A stretch of 64,000 nucleotides of DNA from Aggregicoccus sp. 17bor-14. Lineage in GTDB: Bacteria > Myxococcota > Myxococcia > Myxococcales > Myxococcaceae. Made by a program: the position numbers and the translations under genes. The stretch lies in the NCBI RefSeq assembly GCF_009659535.1, contig NZ_VJZZ01000001.1:808590-872589 (forward strand). The letters run 5' to 3'. This document shows, in pieces, positions 51,215 to 59,956 of the stretch. Within the stretch, counting starts at the first letter, position 1; every line of letters starts with the position of its first letter. The notes under the pieces were generated by a model, which saw only the letters and a list, made by a program, of their open reading frames with translations, had not been told where the DNA came from and did not search any database.

Positions 51215-51424
51215 GGGCTCCACGGGGCTGAACGTCTGTAACTTCGAAAGACCGCACGGCCCCCTGGATCAGTACTTTTCTTCCGTGTGACGCCCCCGTT
51301 GCACCCACGCCACGCCGTGCGCTGCCCCGAAGAGGGCGTTGAACTGTCCTTCCGTGGATAGCGGCAGCGCTGGGCACCCCTGTTGCAGTGCAGCCGTGCG
51401 GGCTGCGGTGGGGAGGCGGGGGCA

Positions 51425-52690
51425 ATGGGCGGGTCAACGGTTTTCGTGCATGGGCGGCGGGGCCTCCTCGCTGCAGTCCTCCTGATTTCGTTCCAGGCTG
51501 CGCAGGCGCGCGCGGCCGGAGCGCCCGATGCGGAGCCCGAGGCGGCTCCGCTGGAGGCTCCGGGCGACGCTCCGGGCGACGCTCCGGGCAACGCCGTGAG
51601 CGTGGGTGACCTGGATGCACCGGTGGCGCTCGCCGCCGCCGAGACGGACGAGGCGCCCGCGGGGGGCCTCGCGCTGCCCGCGGCGCCGGCGCAGCCTGCG
51701 CAGCGGGAGCTGCCGACGGAGCCTTCTGGCGCGCTCGTGGCGCCCGAGGAGCCCGTGACGGCGCCCTCCGAGGGGCGCGAGCGCGCCTCCGAGCCCGTGC
51801 GCAAGGAGCCCAAGGTGCGCGTGTCCGGCCGCGTGTACGCGGGCGGCAGCGCGGACGAGCGCAAGGACTACAAGCGCAAGCTGGGCGTGAGCGAGGCGCG
51901 CGTGGGCGTGGAGGCGCGCTACCGCAACGTCGAGGCGGAGGTGAGCGCGGACCTCTCCTCCAAGGCCATCCTCAAGGACGCGTACGTGCGGCTCGCGGAC
52001 GACGCGAAGCGGCTGCGCCTGTATGCCGGGCAGTTCAAGGCACCCTTCCTCGCGCGCGAGCTGGAGTCGTCCTGGAGCCTGCCGCTCATCAACCGCGGCC
52101 TCGTGCAGAAGTACCTCGTGGACGACCACCAGCTGGGCGGGCGGCGCATGGGGCTGATGGGCGAGGTGAAGGCACAGGGGGCCTGGGCGCTGCGCGCCTC
52201 CGCGGGCGTGTTCCGCGGCGCGCTGGACGAGTTCGGCACGCCGGCGAGCGAGGACGTGTCCGGCCGCATCGCCGTGCAGCCCTTCTCCGCGCTCACGCTG
52301 GGCGCGAGCACCTACCTCACCGAGGCCTTCAAGGGCGTGCGCAACTACGCGGGCGCCGCGGACGCCTCGCTCGAGCTCGGCGCGCTGCGCCTGAGCGCGG
52401 AGGGCAGCGCGGGCCACCTGCCCGTGGGCCGCTTCCTCGCCCAGACGGCGCTCGCCAGCTACACGCTGCCCGTGGGCACGGGGCCCTGGGCGCTGCAGCC
52501 GCTGGTGGGCGCGGAGCTGATGCAGCTGCGCAGCGAAGCCCAGCGCGCGCAGGGGCATGCGGTGCTCGGCGGCGTGAACGTGCTGTACGCGGAAGTGTTC
52601 AAGGCCCAGCTGCAGGCCGAGCGCGCGCTGCGCCCGGGGGACGAGGCGCCCGGCCTCGAGCTCTCCGTGCAGCTGGCCACCCGCTTCTAG
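51425..52690 (+). CDS. Outer-membrane porin-like protein
   Basis: 421 residues from the ATG at 51425. A basic N-terminus leads into LLAAVLLISFQAAQARAAGA, a signal peptide. A ~100-residue Ala/Pro/Glu-rich linker follows, then from ~150 a beta-barrel with alternating strands (VRVSGRVYAGGSADERKDYKRKLGVSEARVGVEARYRNVEAEVSADLSS) and a C-terminal aromatic residue (LSVQLATRF), as required for outer-membrane insertion. The pattern LYAGQFKAPFLAREL is like phosphate/polyphosphate-selective OprO/OprP proteins, but the channel specificity is not proven. It starts the row of phosphate-related genes and is 13 bp before the polyphosphate polymerase gene. Confidence 0.75.
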   Translation: MGGSTVFVHGRRGLLAAVLLISFQAAQARAAGAPDAEPEAAPLEAPGDAPGDAPGNAVSVGDLDAPVALAAAETDEAPAGGLALPAAPAQPAQRELPTEPSGALVAPEEPVTAPSEGRERASEPVRKEPKVRVSGRVYAGGSADERKDYKRKLGVSEARVGVEARYRNVEAEVSADLSSKAILKDAYVRLADDAKRLRLYAGQFKAPFLARELESSWSLPLINRGLVQKYLVDDHQLGGRRMGLMGEVKAQGAWALRASAGVFRGALDEFGTPASEDVSGRIAVQPFSALTLGASTYLTEAFKGVRNYAGAADASLELGALRLSAEGSAGHLPVGRFLAQTALASYTLPVGTGPWALQPLVGAELMQLRSEAQRAQGHAVLGGVNVLYAEVFKAQLQAERALRPGDEAPGLELSVQLATRF

Positions 52691-52703: not shown

Positions 52704-53417
52704 ATGATCCGCTTTGCCGAGGGAGAGGTCACCAAGCTGCGGCGCGAGTTCAAGCTCGTGCTCGGCGCAGACGAGGCGCAGGCGCTGTGCGAGCGGCTCT
52801 CGGGGGAGCTGCTCGGGCCGGTGCCCCTGCCCACGCGCATCACCTCCGTGTACTTCGACCGGTTGGGCCACCCGCTCACCGAGCGCGCGCTGCGCACGCC
52901 GCACGACTGCCTCAAGGTGCGCACGAAGGAGTACGCGCCGGACGTGGGCGCGGACGGCGTGGCGCGCGTGGTGCTCGAGGTGAAGCGCGAGCGCAACGGG
53001 GTGACGCAGAAGCGCCGCGTGTGGGTGCCCCGCGGGCAGCTCCGCACGGTGATGCGCGGCGGCGTGGGGCTCTTGCCCCTCATCGCCGGCGGCAGCCTGC
53101 ACCCCACGCTCGGGGTCACCTACGCGCGCACCGTGTACCAGGGCAGCGACGCGTGGCGCGTCACGGTGGACCGCCACATCGCGTACCACCGGGTGACCGC
53201 GGAGCTCGCCTTCTCCGAGCAGGCGCTGAATGCCGAGCGCCTCGGGGCGCCGGTGCTGCGCGACCCGGAGGTGATCGTGGAGGTGAAGCACCTGGGGCGC
53301 GAGCTGCCGGAGTGGATCTCCGCGCTGCAGCGCGCGAGTGACCGGGGCTACAGCAAGTTCGCAGTGGGAATGGCGCAGCTCGAGGAGCGCGCCATGGGTG
53401 GCAGCGTCGGGGGGTAG
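52704..53417 (+). CDS. VTC-type polyphosphate polymerase domain protein
   Basis: 237 residues. It matches the VTC catalytic tunnel in order: LRREFKLVL, TRITSVYFDRLGHPL, CLKVRTKEY, ARVVLEVKRERNGVTQKRRVWVP, YARTVYQGSDAWRVTVDRHIAY, VIVEVKHLGRELPEW and RGYSKFAVGM. The basic residues that grip the nucleotide and phosphate chain and the metal-binding Glu are all there. VTC proteins make polyphosphate from ATP and push it across a membrane; this protein has no membrane helix itself. The DUF4956 protein two genes downstream is a well-known partner of such polymerases. The gene is 8 bp before the kinase-repeat fusion. Confidence 0.85.
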   Translation: MIRFAEGEVTKLRREFKLVLGADEAQALCERLSGELLGPVPLPTRITSVYFDRLGHPLTERALRTPHDCLKVRTKEYAPDVGADGVARVVLEVKRERNGVTQKRRVWVPRGQLRTVMRGGVGLLPLIAGGSLHPTLGVTYARTVYQGSDAWRVTVDRHIAYHRVTAELAFSEQALNAERLGAPVLRDPEVIVEVKHLGRELPEWISALQRASDRGYSKFAVGMAQLEERAMGGSVGG

Positions 53418-53425
53418 GGGTTCTC

Positions 53426-55135
53426 GTGTTCATCGACTTCGAAGGCATCGACGGCAGTGGCAAGACCACGCTTTCCAACCTGCTCGCGGCGCGGCTCAAG
53501 CGCCTCGGCTACCGGGTGACGCACGCGCGGGAGGGCGGCGAGCTGCAGAGTCCCATCGCGCGGCGCATCCGCGAGCTCACGCGCGATGCGCGCCTGCTGG
53601 AGATGGGGGCGCGCACCGAGTTCTTCCTCAACCTCGCGCGCGACGCCCAGCAGCTCGAGGAGGTGATCGCCCCGGCGCTCACCCGCGGCGACGTGTGCAT
53701 CACCGACCGCTACCTCTACTCGCAGCTCGCGCTGAGCGGGGGCGGGCGCGGCCTGCCCCAGGCGGAGCTGCAGCCCTCCTGCGAGCTGGCCTCGCAGGGC
53801 CTGTGGCCGGACCTGGTCATCCTGGTGGACGTGGACCCGGACCTCGCCCGGCTGCGCAAGCGCCTGGGCAAGCTCAAGGAGCGGCGCGAGAAGGACAGCG
53901 ACAGCCGCAAGGGCCTGGTGGGCGCGGGGCTGAGCGTGCGCGTGCGCGAGCAGTTCCGCGAGCTCGCGCGCCAGGAGCCCAGCCGCTGGCTGGTCATCGA
54001 GAACAACGAGCAGCCCCTGTGGGTGCTCGAGCAGCGCATCGTGGACGCGGTGGTCGCGCGGCTCGAGGGGCGTGAGCCGACCATCCAGCGCATCGCGGCG
54101 CCGCCTGCGGCCCCCGCCCCGTTCAGCCCGGAGCCTGCGGCGATCGAGCAGCGCTTCTACGACGTGCTGGACGGGCTGGAGACGCGCGAGCCCGCGCTGG
54201 GGGTGTTCCTGCTGGGCGGCATGCCGGGCACGGCCGCGCACAAGCGCCGGCTCGCGGCCGCCGAGCGCTTCCCCGAGCTCACCGCCCGCAGCCTCACCGG
54301 CCTCTTCGACGAGGCCGCGTGGGATTTGCGCGAGCTGCTCGCCCCGCGCGCCCCGGCCGAGGTCGCGCAGAGCCTCGTGTACGATGCGTCCGCCCGTGCG
54401 GACGCGCTGCGCACCCGCCTCTTCCCGCTCGCCCCGCGCGACGTGCTCCAGAGCCTCAAGCGCGTGGACACGGAGGTGGCCTGGGCGCTGCGCGAGCACG
54501 GCCTGCACGCGGGCCAGCTCGCGGACGTGCTGTGTGGGCTCGCCGGCGTGGACACCGCGGCGGCGTGGGTGATGCGTGAGCGCGGCGTGGCGGCGGGCCT
54601 GTACGCGGACGTCGCGCGCAGCCTGCAGGGCGTGGCGGGCGAGCGCGCGGATGCGCTGCGCGAGCGGCTGCTACCCAACGACCGGCTCGCCGTGCTGCGC
54701 AGCGTGACGGGGCTGGACTCCCCGTTCGCGAGCGCCCTGCGCGCCTCGCTCGAGCAGCACGCGCTCAAGCTGGTGATGCGCTCGCTCACGGGGCTCACCA
54801 CCGACGAGGCCTTCGCGCTGCGCGAGCGCGGCGCGGCCCGCTCGAAGGAGGCCATCGACTCGCTGGACGGGCTGGACCACCCGCGCGCGTGGGCCCTGCG
54901 CGAGGCGTACGCCGCGCGCTGGCCGGCCACCGTGCTCTCGTCCATGCGCGGCCTGCCGCTGGGCGAGCGCACCCGGGCGCTGCTCGCGCGCGTGCTGGAG
55001 GCCTCGCCCTCGCGCCTGCCCTTGCTGCGAAACGCCTGCGCCGTCGTCACCAGCGCGCCTGCGCCGCAGGCGCCCTCCTCCATCCGCATCGCCGAAGTGG
55101 CGCCCGAGCGTAGTGCGCTCCTGGCGCCGACCTAG
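53426..55135 (+). CDS. Thymidylate-kinase-like protein fused to a 27-residue tandem-repeat domain
   Basis: 569 residues. Residues ~1-215 are a dTMP-kinase fold: FIDFEGIDGSGKTTLSNLL (Walker A, Lys13), ITDRYLYSQLALSG (DRY, ~94-96), and LVDVDPDLARLRKR. From ~289 to ~505 come eight tandem copies of a helical unit with pattern SLxGLdtxxAWaLRexxxxxxxxxVlx, beginning at residues 289, 316, 343, 371, 399, 426, 453 and 479, with a partial ninth at 506. The spacing is 26-28 residues. No known thymidylate kinase has this part. The unit looks like a short alpha-solenoid. Gene order with VTC polymerase and DUF4956 suggests a role in polyphosphate formation or regulation rather than DNA precursor supply. 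Confidence 0.85.
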   Translation: MFIDFEGIDGSGKTTLSNLLAARLKRLGYRVTHAREGGELQSPIARRIRELTRDARLLEMGARTEFFLNLARDAQQLEEVIAPALTRGDVCITDRYLYSQLALSGGGRGLPQAELQPSCELASQGLWPDLVILVDVDPDLARLRKRLGKLKERREKDSDSRKGLVGAGLSVRVREQFRELARQEPSRWLVIENNEQPLWVLEQRIVDAVVARLEGREPTIQRIAAPPAAPAPFSPEPAAIEQRFYDVLDGLETREPALGVFLLGGMPGTAAHKRRLAAAERFPELTARSLTGLFDEAAWDLRELLAPRAPAEVAQSLVYDASARADALRTRLFPLAPRDVLQSLKRVDTEVAWALREHGLHAGQLADVLCGLAGVDTAAAWVMRERGVAAGLYADVARSLQGVAGERADALRERLLPNDRLAVLRSVTGLDSPFASALRASLEQHALKLVMRSLTGLTTDEAFALRERGAARSKEAIDSLDGLDHPRAWALREAYAARWPATVLSSMRGLPLGERTRALLARVLEASPSRLPLLRNACAVVTSAPAPQAPSSIRIAEVAPERSALLAPT

Positions 55136-55152: not shown

Positions 55153-55860
55153 ATGCTCTTTCCCCAGCTCCAATCGCTGGCCGAGTCGGCCTCCGCGGTG
55201 CCCATGCCGGTGCAGGCCAGCACCATGGTGCCGCGCCTGCTCGCCGCGACCCTCATCGGCACGGTGCTCAGCCTGCGCCCGTGGCGCCTGCTCTTCGGGC
55301 GCCCGCTGCCCAAGGCCGAGATGATGCAGGCGCAGATCCTCCTGTGCGCGGCCGCCGCCGTCATCACCCTGGTGGTGGGCGAGAGCATGGCCAAGGCCTT
55401 CGGGCTGGTGGGCCTGGGCGGCTTCGTGCGCTTCAGGTCCGGGCTCAAGGACCCGCGCGACGCGGCCGTGCTCTTCCTCGTCATCGGGCTGGGCATGGCC
55501 TGTGGCCACGGCACGCTGGGCATCGCGTTCGCGGGCGCCTCGTTCGTGGCGCTGATGCTCTTCGCGCAGGACCTGCTGAACAAAGAGGAGAAGCCCTCGA
55601 AGCAGCGCGTGGTGGTGAGCGCGCAGGCGGATGACCTGGTGGGGGCGGAGGCCTCGCTGCGCCAGGCGCTCGGCGCGCGCAACGTGCTGGTGAAGGGCTG
55701 CGCGCTCGACTTCGACGCGCGCCGCCTGGAGCTCGAGGTGGAGGAGCGCGAGCCCGGGGTGCTCGCCGCGGCGCTCAGCGGCACGAACGGCAGCGCCCTG
55801 CGCGGACTGCGCTGGACGACGGTGTCCCCGAAGTCGGGGGCAAGGGAGGAGCTGACATGA
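55153..55860 (+). CDS. DUF4956 membrane protein
   Basis: 235 residues. Four to five membrane helices are visible in the first ~140 residues: LLAATLIGTVLSLRP, MQAQILLCAAAAVITLVVGESMAKAFGLVGLGGFVRFRSGLKDPRDAAVLFLVIGLGMACGHG. The GLVGLGGFVRFRSGLKDPRD stretch is the DUF4956/MgtC-like signature. A soluble C-terminal domain follows (QRVVVSAQADDLVGAEASLRQAL). In other bacteria DUF4956 genes sit beside VTC-type polymerases, as here. Its stop overlaps the next gene by 4 bp (ATGA). It starts 17 bp after the kinase-repeat gene. Confidence 0.85.
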   Translation: MLFPQLQSLAESASAVPMPVQASTMVPRLLAATLIGTVLSLRPWRLLFGRPLPKAEMMQAQILLCAAAAVITLVVGESMAKAFGLVGLGGFVRFRSGLKDPRDAAVLFLVIGLGMACGHGTLGIAFAGASFVALMLFAQDLLNKEEKPSKQRVVVSAQADDLVGAEASLRQALGARNVLVKGCALDFDARRLELEVEEREPGVLAAALSGTNGSALRGLRWTTVSPKSGAREELT

Positions 55861-56594
55861 AGACGCAGAAGACGAAGGTGCTCGCCGCATTCGCGGCGCT
55901 GGTGTTCACGGCGGGCTGCGGGGGCGGAAGCCTTCCCACCGACGACGGCTCCGGGGTGGACCCGGGCCCGGTGAACCCGCAGCCCAATCCGCCCGCGAGC
56001 GCCACCAGCCTGTGGCCGCTCACCACGGGCTCCACCTGGACCTACGCCATCACCGAGAAGGACGGACGGCGCTACACCAAGGACGTGACGGTGAAGGGCC
56101 TCCAGGACGTCCCCAACCAGCCCGGGGTGCAGGCCATCCAGGTGGAGAGCGTGCAGCAGCGCACCCCCGTGTATCTGGAGCGCTCCTGGCAGCAGGAGTC
56201 CGGTGGCCTCGTCACCCGCCTGCGCGAGGAGGACCACCACGACGGGCAGCTCTACAGCGTCAGCGTCTGGTCTCCCGCCACGCTCAAGTCCATCTCCGCG
56301 TCGCACGAGGTGGGCTGGACCTACACCCAGGGTGAGGTGACGGAGAAGGTCGCGTACACGGACGGGACCCCGGCCACGAGCGAGCCCATGAAGCCCTACC
56401 TGTGGCGCATCATCGCGGTGAACGAGACCGTCGAGGTGCCTGCCGGCAAGTTCACCAACGCCGTGCACCTGCAGCGCGACCGCACCGACAAGGACGGCAA
56501 GGTGCGCGACTACTGGCTCGTGCCGGGCGTGGGCAAGGTGAAGGAGGACGGCGAGCGCCTCGAGGAGCTCTCCAGCTACAGCGTGAAGCCGTAG
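55857..56594 (+). CDS. Lipoprotein of unknown function in the polyphosphate locus
   Basis: 245 residues, ATG at 55857 overlapping the DUF4956 stop by 4 bp. A lipobox follows the signal (VFTAGCGGGSLPTDDGSG), so it is anchored in a membrane. After a Pro/Gly/Asn-rich linker the rest is beta-rich: SLWPLTTGSTWTYAITEKDGRRYTKDVTVKG, RSWQQESGGLVTRLREE and DYWLVPGVGKVKEDG. The shape is like other myxobacterial lipoproteins that follow polyphosphate or exopolysaccharide genes. No catalytic motif seen. Translation is coupled to DUF4956. Confidence 0.75.
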   Translation: MKTQKTKVLAAFAALVFTAGCGGGSLPTDDGSGVDPGPVNPQPNPPASATSLWPLTTGSTWTYAITEKDGRRYTKDVTVKGLQDVPNQPGVQAIQVESVQQRTPVYLERSWQQESGGLVTRLREEDHHDGQLYSVSVWSPATLKSISASHEVGWTYTQGEVTEKVAYTDGTPATSEPMKPYLWRIIAVNETVEVPAGKFTNAVHLQRDRTDKDGKVRDYWLVPGVGKVKEDGERLEELSSYSVKP

Positions 56595-56712: not shown

Positions 56713-58320
56713 ATGCACCGTCGAGACGCACTGTCCCCTCGCCTGCTCCTTCCTGCCCTGCTCCTCGCGCTCGTGGGTGCGACGCAGGGTGCGCGTGCGG
56801 CCACCCTCACCCGCGCCCCGTATCTCCAGAACGTGAAGCCGGACGCGGCCACGGTGGCCTTCCGGATGAGCGGCACCTGCGCCGCCACGGTGCGCTACGG
56901 CAAGGGCAGCAGCACGGACCTGAGCGCGAACGCCGGCAGCAGCGCCGCGGTGCAGGCCGTGACGCTGCGCGGCCTCGAGCCGGCCACCCGCTACTCGTAC
57001 GTGGTGGACGCGTGCGGCAGCAGCAGCCCCGCGAAGAGCTTCGTCACCGCGCCGCTGCAGGGCACCCAGAAGGTGCACTTCGCCGCGGTGGGGGACTTCG
57101 GCACCGGCGGCACCCAGGAGAAGCAGGTCGCGGACGCGATGCTCGCGCTGCACCCGGAGCTCTTCGTCGCGCTGGGCGACAACGCATACGACGCGGGCAC
57201 CGAGGCGCAGTTCCAGACCAACCTCTTCGCGCCCATGGCCGGGCTGCTCGCGGAGGTGCCGCTCTTCCCCAGCGTGGGCAATCACGAGTACGTGACGAAC
57301 GAGGCCCAGCCCTACCTGGACAACTTCTACCTGCCCACGAACAACGCGCTGGGCAGCGAGCGCTTCTACTCGTTCGACTGGGGCTTCATCCACTTCGTCT
57401 CGCTCGACTCCAACTGCGCGCTGGGCATGTCCGGGGCGGACAAGTGCACGCTGGCGGCGCAGAAGGCCTTCGTGGAGCAGGACCTCGCGGCGAGCACGGC
57501 GGCGTGGAAGGTCGTCTTCTTCCACCACCCGCCCTTCTCCAGCGGCGATCACGGCAGCCAGCTCACGATGCGCCGCGAGTTCGGCCCCCTCTTCGAGAAG
57601 TACGGGGTGGACCTGGTGCTCACCGGGCACGACCACAACTACGAGCGCAGCTACCCGATGAAGGGCGACAACGTGGCGAGCAGCGGCGGCATCCCCTACC
57701 TCGTGGTGGGCAGCGGCGGCGCCACCCTGCGCCCCTTCACCACCGCGAAGCCCTCCTGGAGCGCGGTGCGCAACGACACCGACTACGGCTTCCTCGACGT
57801 GAACGTCGAGGGGGGCACGCTGCAGGCCCGCTTCCTCAACCCCTCGGGCCGCGTGGTGGACAGCTTCACGCTCACGAAGCAGGTGGCCGCGCCGCCCTCC
57901 GCCGCGAGCCTGAGCGTCGCGGTGGACAAGGACAGCGGCACGGCGCCGCACCAGGCCCAGTTCACCGCCACCACCTCGCTGTCCAATCCGACCCTGAACT
58001 GGAGCTTCGGCGATGGCGGTACCTCCACGGGCGCGCAGGCGAGCCACACCTTCACCGAGCCGGGCCAGTACACCGTGAGCGCCACCGCGACCTCGGGCGC
58101 CCAGAGCGTGACCCGCAGCCTCACCGTGCTGGTGGTGGCCCCGGGCCAGCCCCTGCCCCCGTCGGCCGGCGGCGGCGTGGCCCAGCAGCCTCCGGCCGCC
58201 CTCAATCCCTCGGACGGAGCGCAGTCGGGGGGCTGCAGTGCGAGCCCTGCGGCGGCGCTGCTCCCGGTCGCGGGGCTGCTCGCCGCGGGCTTCGCCCGTC
58301 GCCGCCGGCGCCGCGCCTGA
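56713..58320 (+). CDS. Secreted purple-acid-phosphatase-like metallophosphatase with PKD and MYXO-CTERM tail
   Basis: 535 residues. Signal peptide, then an Fn3-like N-terminal domain (LTRAPYLQNVKPDAATVAFRMSGTCAATVRYG, to ~115) as in purple acid phosphatases. The calcineurin-fold core has VGDFGTGG, LGDNAYDAG, VGNHEYVT, FFHHPPFSSGDHGS and TGHDHNYERSYP. A PKD domain follows (NWSFGDGGTSTGAQASHTFTEPGQYTVSATAT, ~430-475). The end, GGCSASPAAALLPVAGLLAAGFARRRRRRA, is MYXO-CTERM-like: a Cys, a hydrophobic stretch, then an Arg cluster. The enzyme likely releases phosphate at the cell surface, feeding the porin and polyphosphate genes upstream. GGAGG precedes the ATG. Confidence 0.88.
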   Translation: MHRRDALSPRLLLPALLLALVGATQGARAATLTRAPYLQNVKPDAATVAFRMSGTCAATVRYGKGSSTDLSANAGSSAAVQAVTLRGLEPATRYSYVVDACGSSSPAKSFVTAPLQGTQKVHFAAVGDFGTGGTQEKQVADAMLALHPELFVALGDNAYDAGTEAQFQTNLFAPMAGLLAEVPLFPSVGNHEYVTNEAQPYLDNFYLPTNNALGSERFYSFDWGFIHFVSLDSNCALGMSGADKCTLAAQKAFVEQDLAASTAAWKVVFFHHPPFSSGDHGSQLTMRREFGPLFEKYGVDLVLTGHDHNYERSYPMKGDNVASSGGIPYLVVGSGGATLRPFTTAKPSWSAVRNDTDYGFLDVNVEGGTLQARFLNPSGRVVDSFTLTKQVAAPPSAASLSVAVDKDSGTAPHQAQFTATTSLSNPTLNWSFGDGGTSTGAQASHTFTEPGQYTVSATATSGAQSVTRSLTVLVVAPGQPLPPSAGGGVAQQPPAALNPSDGAQSGGCSASPAAALLPVAGLLAAGFARRRRRRA

Positions 58321-58450
58321 GGCCGTCCGGCCGGCCGCCCTGCGCTCGGCCCTTGTCAAGGCCCGCCGGGGATGCGATGCGCCTTCCCCGGACCGCCGCC
58401 GCGAGCGCGCAAGGGGTCCCCGGGCGCCCGCCCAGAAGAGGAACACCGCT

Positions 58451-59956
58451 TTGAAGAACCGCCGCCCCGCCCCCTCCTCCGCCCCGCGCAAGGCCGCGCA
58501 TGCCAAGGGCCGCCCCGGTCCGCGCGCCGCCGGGCGTCCCCCGCAGCGCGAGCCGGAGCTGCCGCCGCGCTCCGCCACGCCGCGCTCGGCGGCACCGCGC
58601 GCCGGGGAGGCGCACCGCGAGCGCCCGCTGCGCGAGGACCTGGTGCTGCAGGCCTGCCTCGAGGCCTACGGGCTCGTCACCCGCGAGGGCCGGCTCGCCG
58701 ACCGCGCGCTGGACTTCACCCTGCGGCGCAAGACGAACCTCTACTCCAACGAGCGGCGCGCCGTGGCCGAGCGCGTCTACGCGCTGCTGCGCCGCCGGCG
58801 CACGGTGGACTTCCTGCTGCAGCACGCGCGGCCCCGCTTCGAGCGGCTGGATCCCTCGCGCCAGGACGTGCTGCGGCTCGCCGCGAGCCGCGTGCTGCAC
58901 GGCGAGCCGCCCGAGCTCGTCGCGCGCGGCTCCTCGCTCCTGCAGGAGGATGCCCAGTGCCTCCTCGCCCTGCCCGAGGCGGCCGCCGCGCTCGAGGCCC
59001 TGCCCGAGGCGCAGCGCTTCCCCATCGCCGCGTCGCTGCCGGACTTCCTCGCGCGTGCCTTCCAGGAGACCTTCGGCCCGGACGCGGCGCGCGCCGCCGA
59101 GGCGATGAACGAGCGCGCCCCGCTCACCGCCCGCCTCAACGCGCTGAAGACGGACCGCGCGAGCCTCAAGGCGCGGCTCGCCGAGGAGGGCGTGGAGGCG
59201 CGCGAGACACCCCTGTCCGCGCTCGGCCTGGTGCTCGACAGCCGCCTCAACGCCTTCTCGCTGCCCAGCTTCAAGGACGGCCTCTTCGAGCTGCAGGACG
59301 AGGGCAGCCAGCTGCTCGGCATGCTGGTGGACGCGCCGCCCACGCGCGTGGTGGACGCGTGCGCGGGCGCGGGCGGCAAGACGCTGCAGCTCGCGGCGCA
59401 GATGAAGAACCGCGGCGACCTGCACGCGCTGGACGTGGACGAGAAGCGCGTGGACGAGCTGCGCAAGCGCGCGCGCCGCGCCGGCGTGCACAACGTGCGC
59501 ACCCAGGTCATCCCCGCGGAAGGAGCCGCCGCGGACGAGGCGATTGCCGCGCTCGCCGGCAAGGCGGACCGCGTGCTGGTGGACGCGCCCTGCACTGGCA
59601 CCGGCACCTACCGCCGCAAGCCGGACGCGCGCTACCGGCTCACGCCCCAGGATCTCACCGTGCACGTGGAGCGGCAGAAGACGCTGCTCGAGCGCTTCGC
59701 CACGATGGTGAAGCCCGGCGGCCGCCTCATCTACGGCACCTGCAGCGTGCTGCGCGCGGAGAACGAGGACGTGGTGGCGCACTTCCTCTCGCGCCACCCG
59801 GACTTCCAGGTGCGCCCGGTGGCCGAGCTGCTGGGGCCCGAGCTCGCCGAGCGCCTGGGCTCGGGGCCCTTCCTGCGGCTCGCCCCGCACCTGCACAACA
59901 CGGACGGCTTCTTCGGCGCCGTGCTCGTGCGCGCGAAGGAGGCGCCGCGCAGCTGA
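58451..59956 (+). CDS. RsmB-like RNA (cytosine-5) methyltransferase
   Basis: 501 residues from a TTG at 58451 (AGAGGA upstream); longer in-frame forms start inside the preceding gene. The first ~60 residues are a Pro/Arg-rich extension. A NusB-like helical N-terminal domain follows (LADRALDFTLRRKTNLYSNERRAVAERVYALLRRRRTVDFLL). The SAM domain shows VVDACAGAGGKTLQLA, HALDVDEKRVDELRKRA, LVDAPCTGTGTYRRKPDARYRL (PC motif, one catalytic Cys) and LIYGTCSVLRAENEDVV (TC motif). These are the two Cys of RsmB/NSUN enzymes that methylate 16S rRNA. The stop overlaps the next gene by one base. Confidence 0.85.
   Translation: MKNRRPAPSSAPRKAAHAKGRPGPRAAGRPPQREPELPPRSATPRSAAPRAGEAHRERPLREDLVLQACLEAYGLVTREGRLADRALDFTLRRKTNLYSNERRAVAERVYALLRRRRTVDFLLQHARPRFERLDPSRQDVLRLAASRVLHGEPPELVARGSSLLQEDAQCLLALPEAAAALEALPEAQRFPIAASLPDFLARAFQETFGPDAARAAEAMNERAPLTARLNALKTDRASLKARLAEEGVEARETPLSALGLVLDSRLNAFSLPSFKDGLFELQDEGSQLLGMLVDAPPTRVVDACAGAGGKTLQLAAQMKNRGDLHALDVDEKRVDELRKRARRAGVHNVRTQVIPAEGAAADEAIAALAGKADRVLVDAPCTGTGTYRRKPDARYRLTPQDLTVHVERQKTLLERFATMVKPGGRLIYGTCSVLRAENEDVVAHFLSRHPDFQVRPVAELLGPELAERLGSGPFLRLAPHLHNTDGFFGAVLVRAKEAPRS

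Follow-up and report, generated by a model that had tools for sequence, protein, structure and literature searches.

A stretch of 64,000 nucleotides from Aggregicoccus sp. 17bor-14 (contig NZ_VJZZ01000001.1, positions 808,590 to 872,589), hereafter called the window, carries on its forward strand, at 53426..55135, a gene with a GTG start for a protein of 569 residues, in which a kinase domain of the thymidylate kinase (Tmk) fold is followed by a tail of helical repeats. The assignment is based on the open reading frame (ORF), on Pfam and NCBIfam profiles and on a predicted model. With a probability of about one half, this fusion is a repurposed, Tmk-derived phosphotransferase, accessory to VTC, the predicted polyphosphate polymerase encoded beside it, and its tail docks or holds a partner. 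At the sequence level, the fusion keeps the P-loop lysine and the DR pair, has a replaced thymine site and a basic LID, is linked to VTC in most loci and is accompanied, in nearly every genome, by a separate Tmk match. A new acceptor within the VTC system is proposed because the residues for phosphate transfer are kept while those of the base site are replaced, and because the LID is basic and the recurring neighbours are phosphate-related. Loci, genomes and proteins are indicated, where needed, by L, G and P numbers.

Kinase domain

The kinase domain occupies residues 1-213 (53426..54064, forward strand) and is predicted by the model to adopt the Tmk fold. The Pfam family Thymidylate_kin (PF02223) spans residues 5-196 (E 2e-27), and the NCBIfam profile TIGR00041 reaches 105.1 bits, its cut-off being 83.25. 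The Walker A motif GIDGSGKTT (residues 7-15, 53444..53470, forward strand) and a DRY motif are both present, bearing out the complete dTMP-kinase-like domain claimed by the initial annotation. Fold and Walker A motif, as seen in profiles, model and alignment, are thus those of a deoxythymidine monophosphate (dTMP) kinase. In two fold comparisons of the kinase domain, all the matches listed (50 each) are Tmk chains, and PPK2 polyphosphate kinases could rank lower; in a viral library, most of the named matches are dTMP or deoxynucleoside kinases.

The thymine site was compared in 151 rows of fusions and 30 rows of canonical Tmk, with the T. thermophilus enzyme as reference. The rows are not independent, some being one gene twice (L047/L123); one of the 120 listed proteins (P0110, 400 residues) was excluded for its length, and the motif search matched 30 of the 31 canonical loci, missing L071. 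Thymine contacts given in two reports, F72/R76 for the human enzyme (PMC8679000) and F70/R74 for that of M. tuberculosis (PMC6920704), were paired, through the motif and the F-x3-R spacing, with F65/R69 of T. thermophilus. The R69 column holds R in 30/30 canonical rows and D or E in 151/151 fusions; at F65, F or Y is found in 30/30 canonical rows, while the fusions have N (129), Y (21) or L (1). Y99 and Q100 are retained in 30/30 canonical rows and in 0/151 fusions. The thymine-contact positions are therefore changed in every fusion row, and the set F65, R69, Y99 and Q100, which would mark a dTMP kinase, is absent. The Walker lysine (K13) and the residues corresponding to D90 and R91 (D94-R95 in the fusion) are, in contrast, retained in 151/151 fusions.

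The basic LID motif, SRKGLVGAGLSVRVR (residues 160-174, 53903..53947, forward strand), includes an added basic stretch, RKGL, with R161 and K162 in 150/151 rows. The column of E148, which contains E, D or N in the 30 canonical rows, is K (K162) in 150/151 fusions, a pairing that is less sure, because of gaps in the alignment columns of the LID. The sole row without R161 and K162 comes from G139 (L036), the genome in which the fusion occurs with no VTC match: this is a single case.

In a tree of 47 kinase domains, 33 fusions are split from 14 canonical Tmk by a branch supported at 100/99; the canonical Tmk are a narrow sample, and a long-branch warning applies. Compared with bacterial Tmk (PF02223, TIGR00041), the fusion is distinguished by the replaced thymine contacts (151/151 rows), the basic LID motif, a tail of about 310 residues and the presence of a second Tmk match in its genome.

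This second match, found elsewhere in the genome as the initial annotation had suggested checking, scores higher (143.6 bits) than the fusion (99.2), which is therefore not the only Tmk match; a third one, at 21.5 bits, is under the cut-off. Of the 75 fusion genomes of the order, 72, Aggregicoccus sp. 17bor-14 among them, have a further PF02223 match listed at 115 bits or more. For the other three, no such further match is among those listed (three matches each in G067 and G139, one in G092). Since a second Tmk match is listed in 72 of 75 genomes and the thymine-contact positions are replaced, the fusion is unlikely to be the dTMP kinase of the cell; the early suggestion of a role other than making dTDP agrees with these data. 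It is improbable that the protein has remained a thymidylate kinase, or is a nucleoside monophosphate kinase of broad range, that the tail only localises. The curated TIGR00041 profile does name the fusion a dTMP kinase, above its cut-off, but the contact positions are replaced in every row, a separate Tmk match is present in those 72 genomes, and a Tmk type lacking the Walker A lysine is the sole PF02223 match of the 99% complete genome G126.

Being the only match there, the lysine-less type presumably works. In the second Tmk of the Aggregicoccus genome itself, T replaces the Walker A lysine (GAGTTT); GAGTTT in place of GxGKT is found in 18 of the 30 canonical rows (L055, at G000:C8:98712-99275, and 17 loci among L056-L085).

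Helical-repeat tail

Ten two-helix units of 26-28 residues each, with borders drawn from the predicted model, extend from residue 256 to 527 (54191..55006, forward strand). Self-similarity at lag 27, over residues 235-545, is -0.13, versus a mean of -0.79 (sd 0.12) for shuffled sequences, and 0/2000 shuffles reach -0.13. The tandem repeat reported initially is thereby retained, but not its count: the eight units noted correspond to units 2-9 (283-499). One arginine per repeat is near-invariant through nine consecutive units (R275-R492). The tail model (predicted local distance difference test score, pLDDT, 97) consists of two-helix repeats and supports the early guess of an alpha-solenoid: the tail is predicted to form a helical solenoid and, less surely, to close into a ring.

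The repeat was rejected as a curated domain: the tail alone matches no Pfam family over the cut-off (the best is DUF883, at E 2.1), and the repeat gives a single chance match to PDB sequences (E 0.83). A Foldseek search with the tail model returned no match at E 0.001, and the tail had no match in plasmids. The closest likeness of the model is to the PC-repeat toroid of the proteasome subunits Rpn1/Rpn2, at a score that exceeds the chance level of helical models only modestly; the tail differs from it in having no PC-repeat profile match in Pfam.

The tail search and a distant-tail profile search scored only about 8000 candidates, within a limited length range. The 30 matches of the former include, besides P0149, Tmk fusions, presumed partial genes (mostly on short contigs), a tail-only ORF on a 2.99 Mb contig (P0143) and a chimeric ORF (P0136). 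Among the best 120 of 125 matches of the latter, all are Tmk fusions or tail pieces except P0201 and P0143. P0149 (247 residues, E 5.8e-5 in the tail search) is free of the kinase and features, by eye, four 28-residue units like those of the fusion. As to whether the repeat region belongs to a known domain, a check proposed at the outset, no Pfam family matched, yet the similar units of P0149 indicate that the repeat may exist outside the Tmk-fusion family. P0149 had no match in phages. P0201 (560 residues) joins a kinase-free repeat tail to a DUF4956 domain in a single ORF; this arrangement may be genuine or come from an error in sequencing or assembly.

The main rival to a phosphotransferase is a scaffold that regulates VTC and DUF4956 by sensing nucleotides or phosphate, with little or no turnover, comparable to the SPX domains of yeast VTC. 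It would account for the large conserved tail with its near-invariant arginine in nine units, for the single ORF of tail and DUF4956 in P0201 and for the linkage to VTC; a pure scaffold, however, would not need K13 and D94-R95, invariant in 151/151 rows, and we consider this explanation rather unlikely.

Genomic context

The genes on either side of the fusion are those claimed by the initial annotation. A VTC-domain protein, the predicted polyphosphate polymerase, is encoded upstream (52704..53417, forward strand; PF09359, 66.8 bits, cut-off 23, E 2.7e-18), and a predicted membrane protein with a DUF4956 domain downstream (55153..55860, forward strand; PF16316, 41.6 bits, cut-off 30.6, E 1.4e-10); only 8 and 17 bases, respectively, separate their reading frames from that of the fusion. 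The VTC gene is preceded by a porin-like gene (51425..52690, forward strand), weakly similar to phosphate-selective porins (PF07396, 16 bits, below the cut-off of 20.9), for which the ATG at 51425 was chosen as start, while the ORF list gives a TTG at 51383; the porin gene of a paralogous locus reaches 33.8 bits, above the same cut-off. After DUF4956, two more genes follow on the forward strand: one for a protein judged lipoprotein-like by eye, found in most main loci (55857..56594, no Pfam match over the cut-off), and one for a purple-acid-phosphatase-like metallophosphatase with a PKD domain (56713..58320; PF00149, 3.3e-14; PF14008, 2.3e-7; PF18911, 3.5e-13).

The order porin-VTC-fusion-DUF4956 is found in 29/29 close loci (L003-L031) and in 10/10 further main loci (L037-L045 and L053); L054 is truncated by a contig end, and L118, also at a contig end, is too short. 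A paralog, 41-44% identical to the fusion, is present in seven loci (L046-L052) with the order CotH-VTC-porin-fusion-DUF4956, where CotH and DUF4956 are found in 7/7 and VTC and porin in 6/7. Adjacency to VTC is thus conserved, with L036 and L049 as exceptions. All five genes of the paralogous loci, CotH among them, are also present in L121. DUF4956 is followed by a PhoU_div gene in L046 (on one contig with L126) and in L052, and a BLAST relative of it adjoins the relocated VTC and porin of G083 (L143). Polyangia-type loci are arranged as porin-fusion-lipoprotein-like-VTC-Na/Pi cotransporter: BLAST or Pfam shows VTC in L116, L117 (partial match), L119 and L120, and neither shows it in L125; the cotransporter was confirmed by Pfam in those tested (L116, L120, L125). 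The neighbours of the fusion are, therefore, predicted phosphate genes: VTC, porin and DUF4956, with CotH, PhoU_div, Na/Pi cotransporter or phosphatase-like genes depending on the lineage. This supports the phosphate/polyphosphate operon initially described, as far as predictions from sequence go.

According to the accessible part of PMC7112168, genes for CotH, a poly-phosphate polymerase and DUF4956 adjoin Pel exopolysaccharide operons. These sets share all three kinds of gene with the paralogous fusion loci; they are described there, in the same part, with no Tmk-repeat fusion, and the myxobacterial loci add a porin, PhoU_div or a Na/Pi cotransporter. The cluster might accordingly make or modify an extracellular phosphorylated polymer or matrix, the kinase serving an export or modification path. 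The presence of CotH in L121 and in all seven loci of the paralog, the association of the gene set with Pel and the porin, lipoprotein-like and phosphatase-like neighbours would fit such a role, while PhoU_div and the Na/Pi cotransporter indicate phosphate handling instead; on balance, we hold it to be quite improbable.

A PPDK_N-domain (ATP-binding) protein is encoded beside VTC at L140:5823-7850 and upstream of porin and fusion at L125:1036-3204; a PPDK_N gene accompanies VTC and DUF4956 in G052, a genome with VTC only.

Distribution of the family

Judging from its occurrence in 75 of the 145 genomes of the order (two of them, G059 and G121, with fusions truncated by contig ends), the fusion is old, and a recent fusion or an assembly artefact was rejected on the same grounds. 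A tail-profile search of 195 genomes of the phylum again gave 75 with the fusion. Of two contig scans, one confirmed no locus and the other yielded 11, of which L123 is the same as L047 and L126 as L046. The full-protein search produced 755 matches, of which the best 120 were examined. In the protein searches, the named matches are mostly from Myxococcota (Myxococcus xanthus DK 1622, Corallococcus, Archangium, Hyalangium, Anaeromyxobacter, Polyangiaceae, Kofleriaceae, Haliangium). A few are labelled otherwise: a Pseudomonadota metagenome-assembled genome and a Comamonas record in the full-protein and distant-tail searches, and metagenome-assembled genomes of Proteobacteria and Deltaproteobacteria in the contig scan.

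VTC and fusion occur together in 70 of the 145 genomes, fusion only in 5, VTC only in 5 and neither in 65 (Fisher p 8e-29, uncorrected for kinship). In three of the fusion-only genomes (G107, G013, G014) VTC adjoins the fusion by BLAST, so the VTC profile search misses some; in a fourth, G059, the fusion is at a contig edge.

A literature search on the system, by title and beginning of abstract and with subscription papers mostly outside its scope, found no description of the Tmk-repeat architecture. The fusion combines known kinds of components, a P-loop kinase, a solenoid and a VTC cluster, in a new way, and the architecture is as unusual as first claimed.

Proposed function

In yeast, Vtc4p makes polyphosphate from ATP (PMC4641920). 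If the bacterial VTC protein does the same, a catalytically active fusion may move phosphate between the VTC-made polyphosphate pool and a nucleotide, or prime or trim the chains, while its tail would dock or hold a partner, possibly VTC, DUF4956 or the polyphosphate chain itself. The acceptor would then be either a nucleotide other than that of thymidine or polyphosphate. The latter is a reasonable candidate, because PPK2s, thought to share a P-loop ancestor with Tmk, bind it between the core and a basic lid (PMC8776046). PPK2 (PF03976) and the fusion are, on that description, alike as P-loop kinases with a basic lid in a polyphosphate setting; they differ in that no PPK2 profile match is found in the fusion, and PPK2 is a separate match in the same genome.

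To the TIGR00041 name and the gaps in the LID alignment, several points must be added that weigh against a phosphotransferase of the VTC system. Membership of PPK2 was rejected, as PF03976 is not among the matches of the fusion up to E 1. Separate PPK1 and PPK2 matches in the Aggregicoccus genome mean that polyphosphate-nucleotide transfer may already be covered. That the VTC protein makes polyphosphate, rather than being a tripolyphosphatase, is a prediction; 18 polar positions are conserved in at least 57 of 59 VTC rows. VTC can do without the fusion, which is absent from five genomes that carry VTC; conversely, G139 has no VTC match, and its fusion (L036) lies next to RsmB, with the other cluster genes giving no BLAST match there. 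In L049, CotH and DUF4956 adjoin the fusion, and VTC and porin are on another contig. From the occurrence of CotH, poly-phosphate polymerase and DUF4956 beside Pel, it follows that the cluster need not be for storage. Finally, the conserved arginine of the repeats may be structural.

A bolder version of the proposed phosphotransferase, which we regard as doubtful, would have a ring of arginine-lined repeats grip the VTC-made chain while phosphate is moved to or from a nucleotide, the fusion, VTC and DUF4956 forming one bacterial machine that both makes and uses polyphosphate. A polyphosphate enzyme would then have evolved from Tmk a second time, independently. If the kinase does use polyphosphate, the Tmk fold would have given rise to such an activity on a separate occasion. 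The dTMP kinase label carried by many proteins of the family is probably a misnomer, of consequence for metabolic models. The fusion is also a conserved putative partner of bacterial VTC; to our knowledge, bacterial VTC systems have been little studied.

The PPK2 match of the genome (G000:C1:796184-796855, L137) lies about 12 kb before the window, and one internal TGA is reported in it. Downstream of the cluster, the window contains a gene for an RsmB/F 16S rRNA methyltransferase (58439-59956), a relative of which is near the fusion also in L036, L043-L045, L053, L054 and L139.
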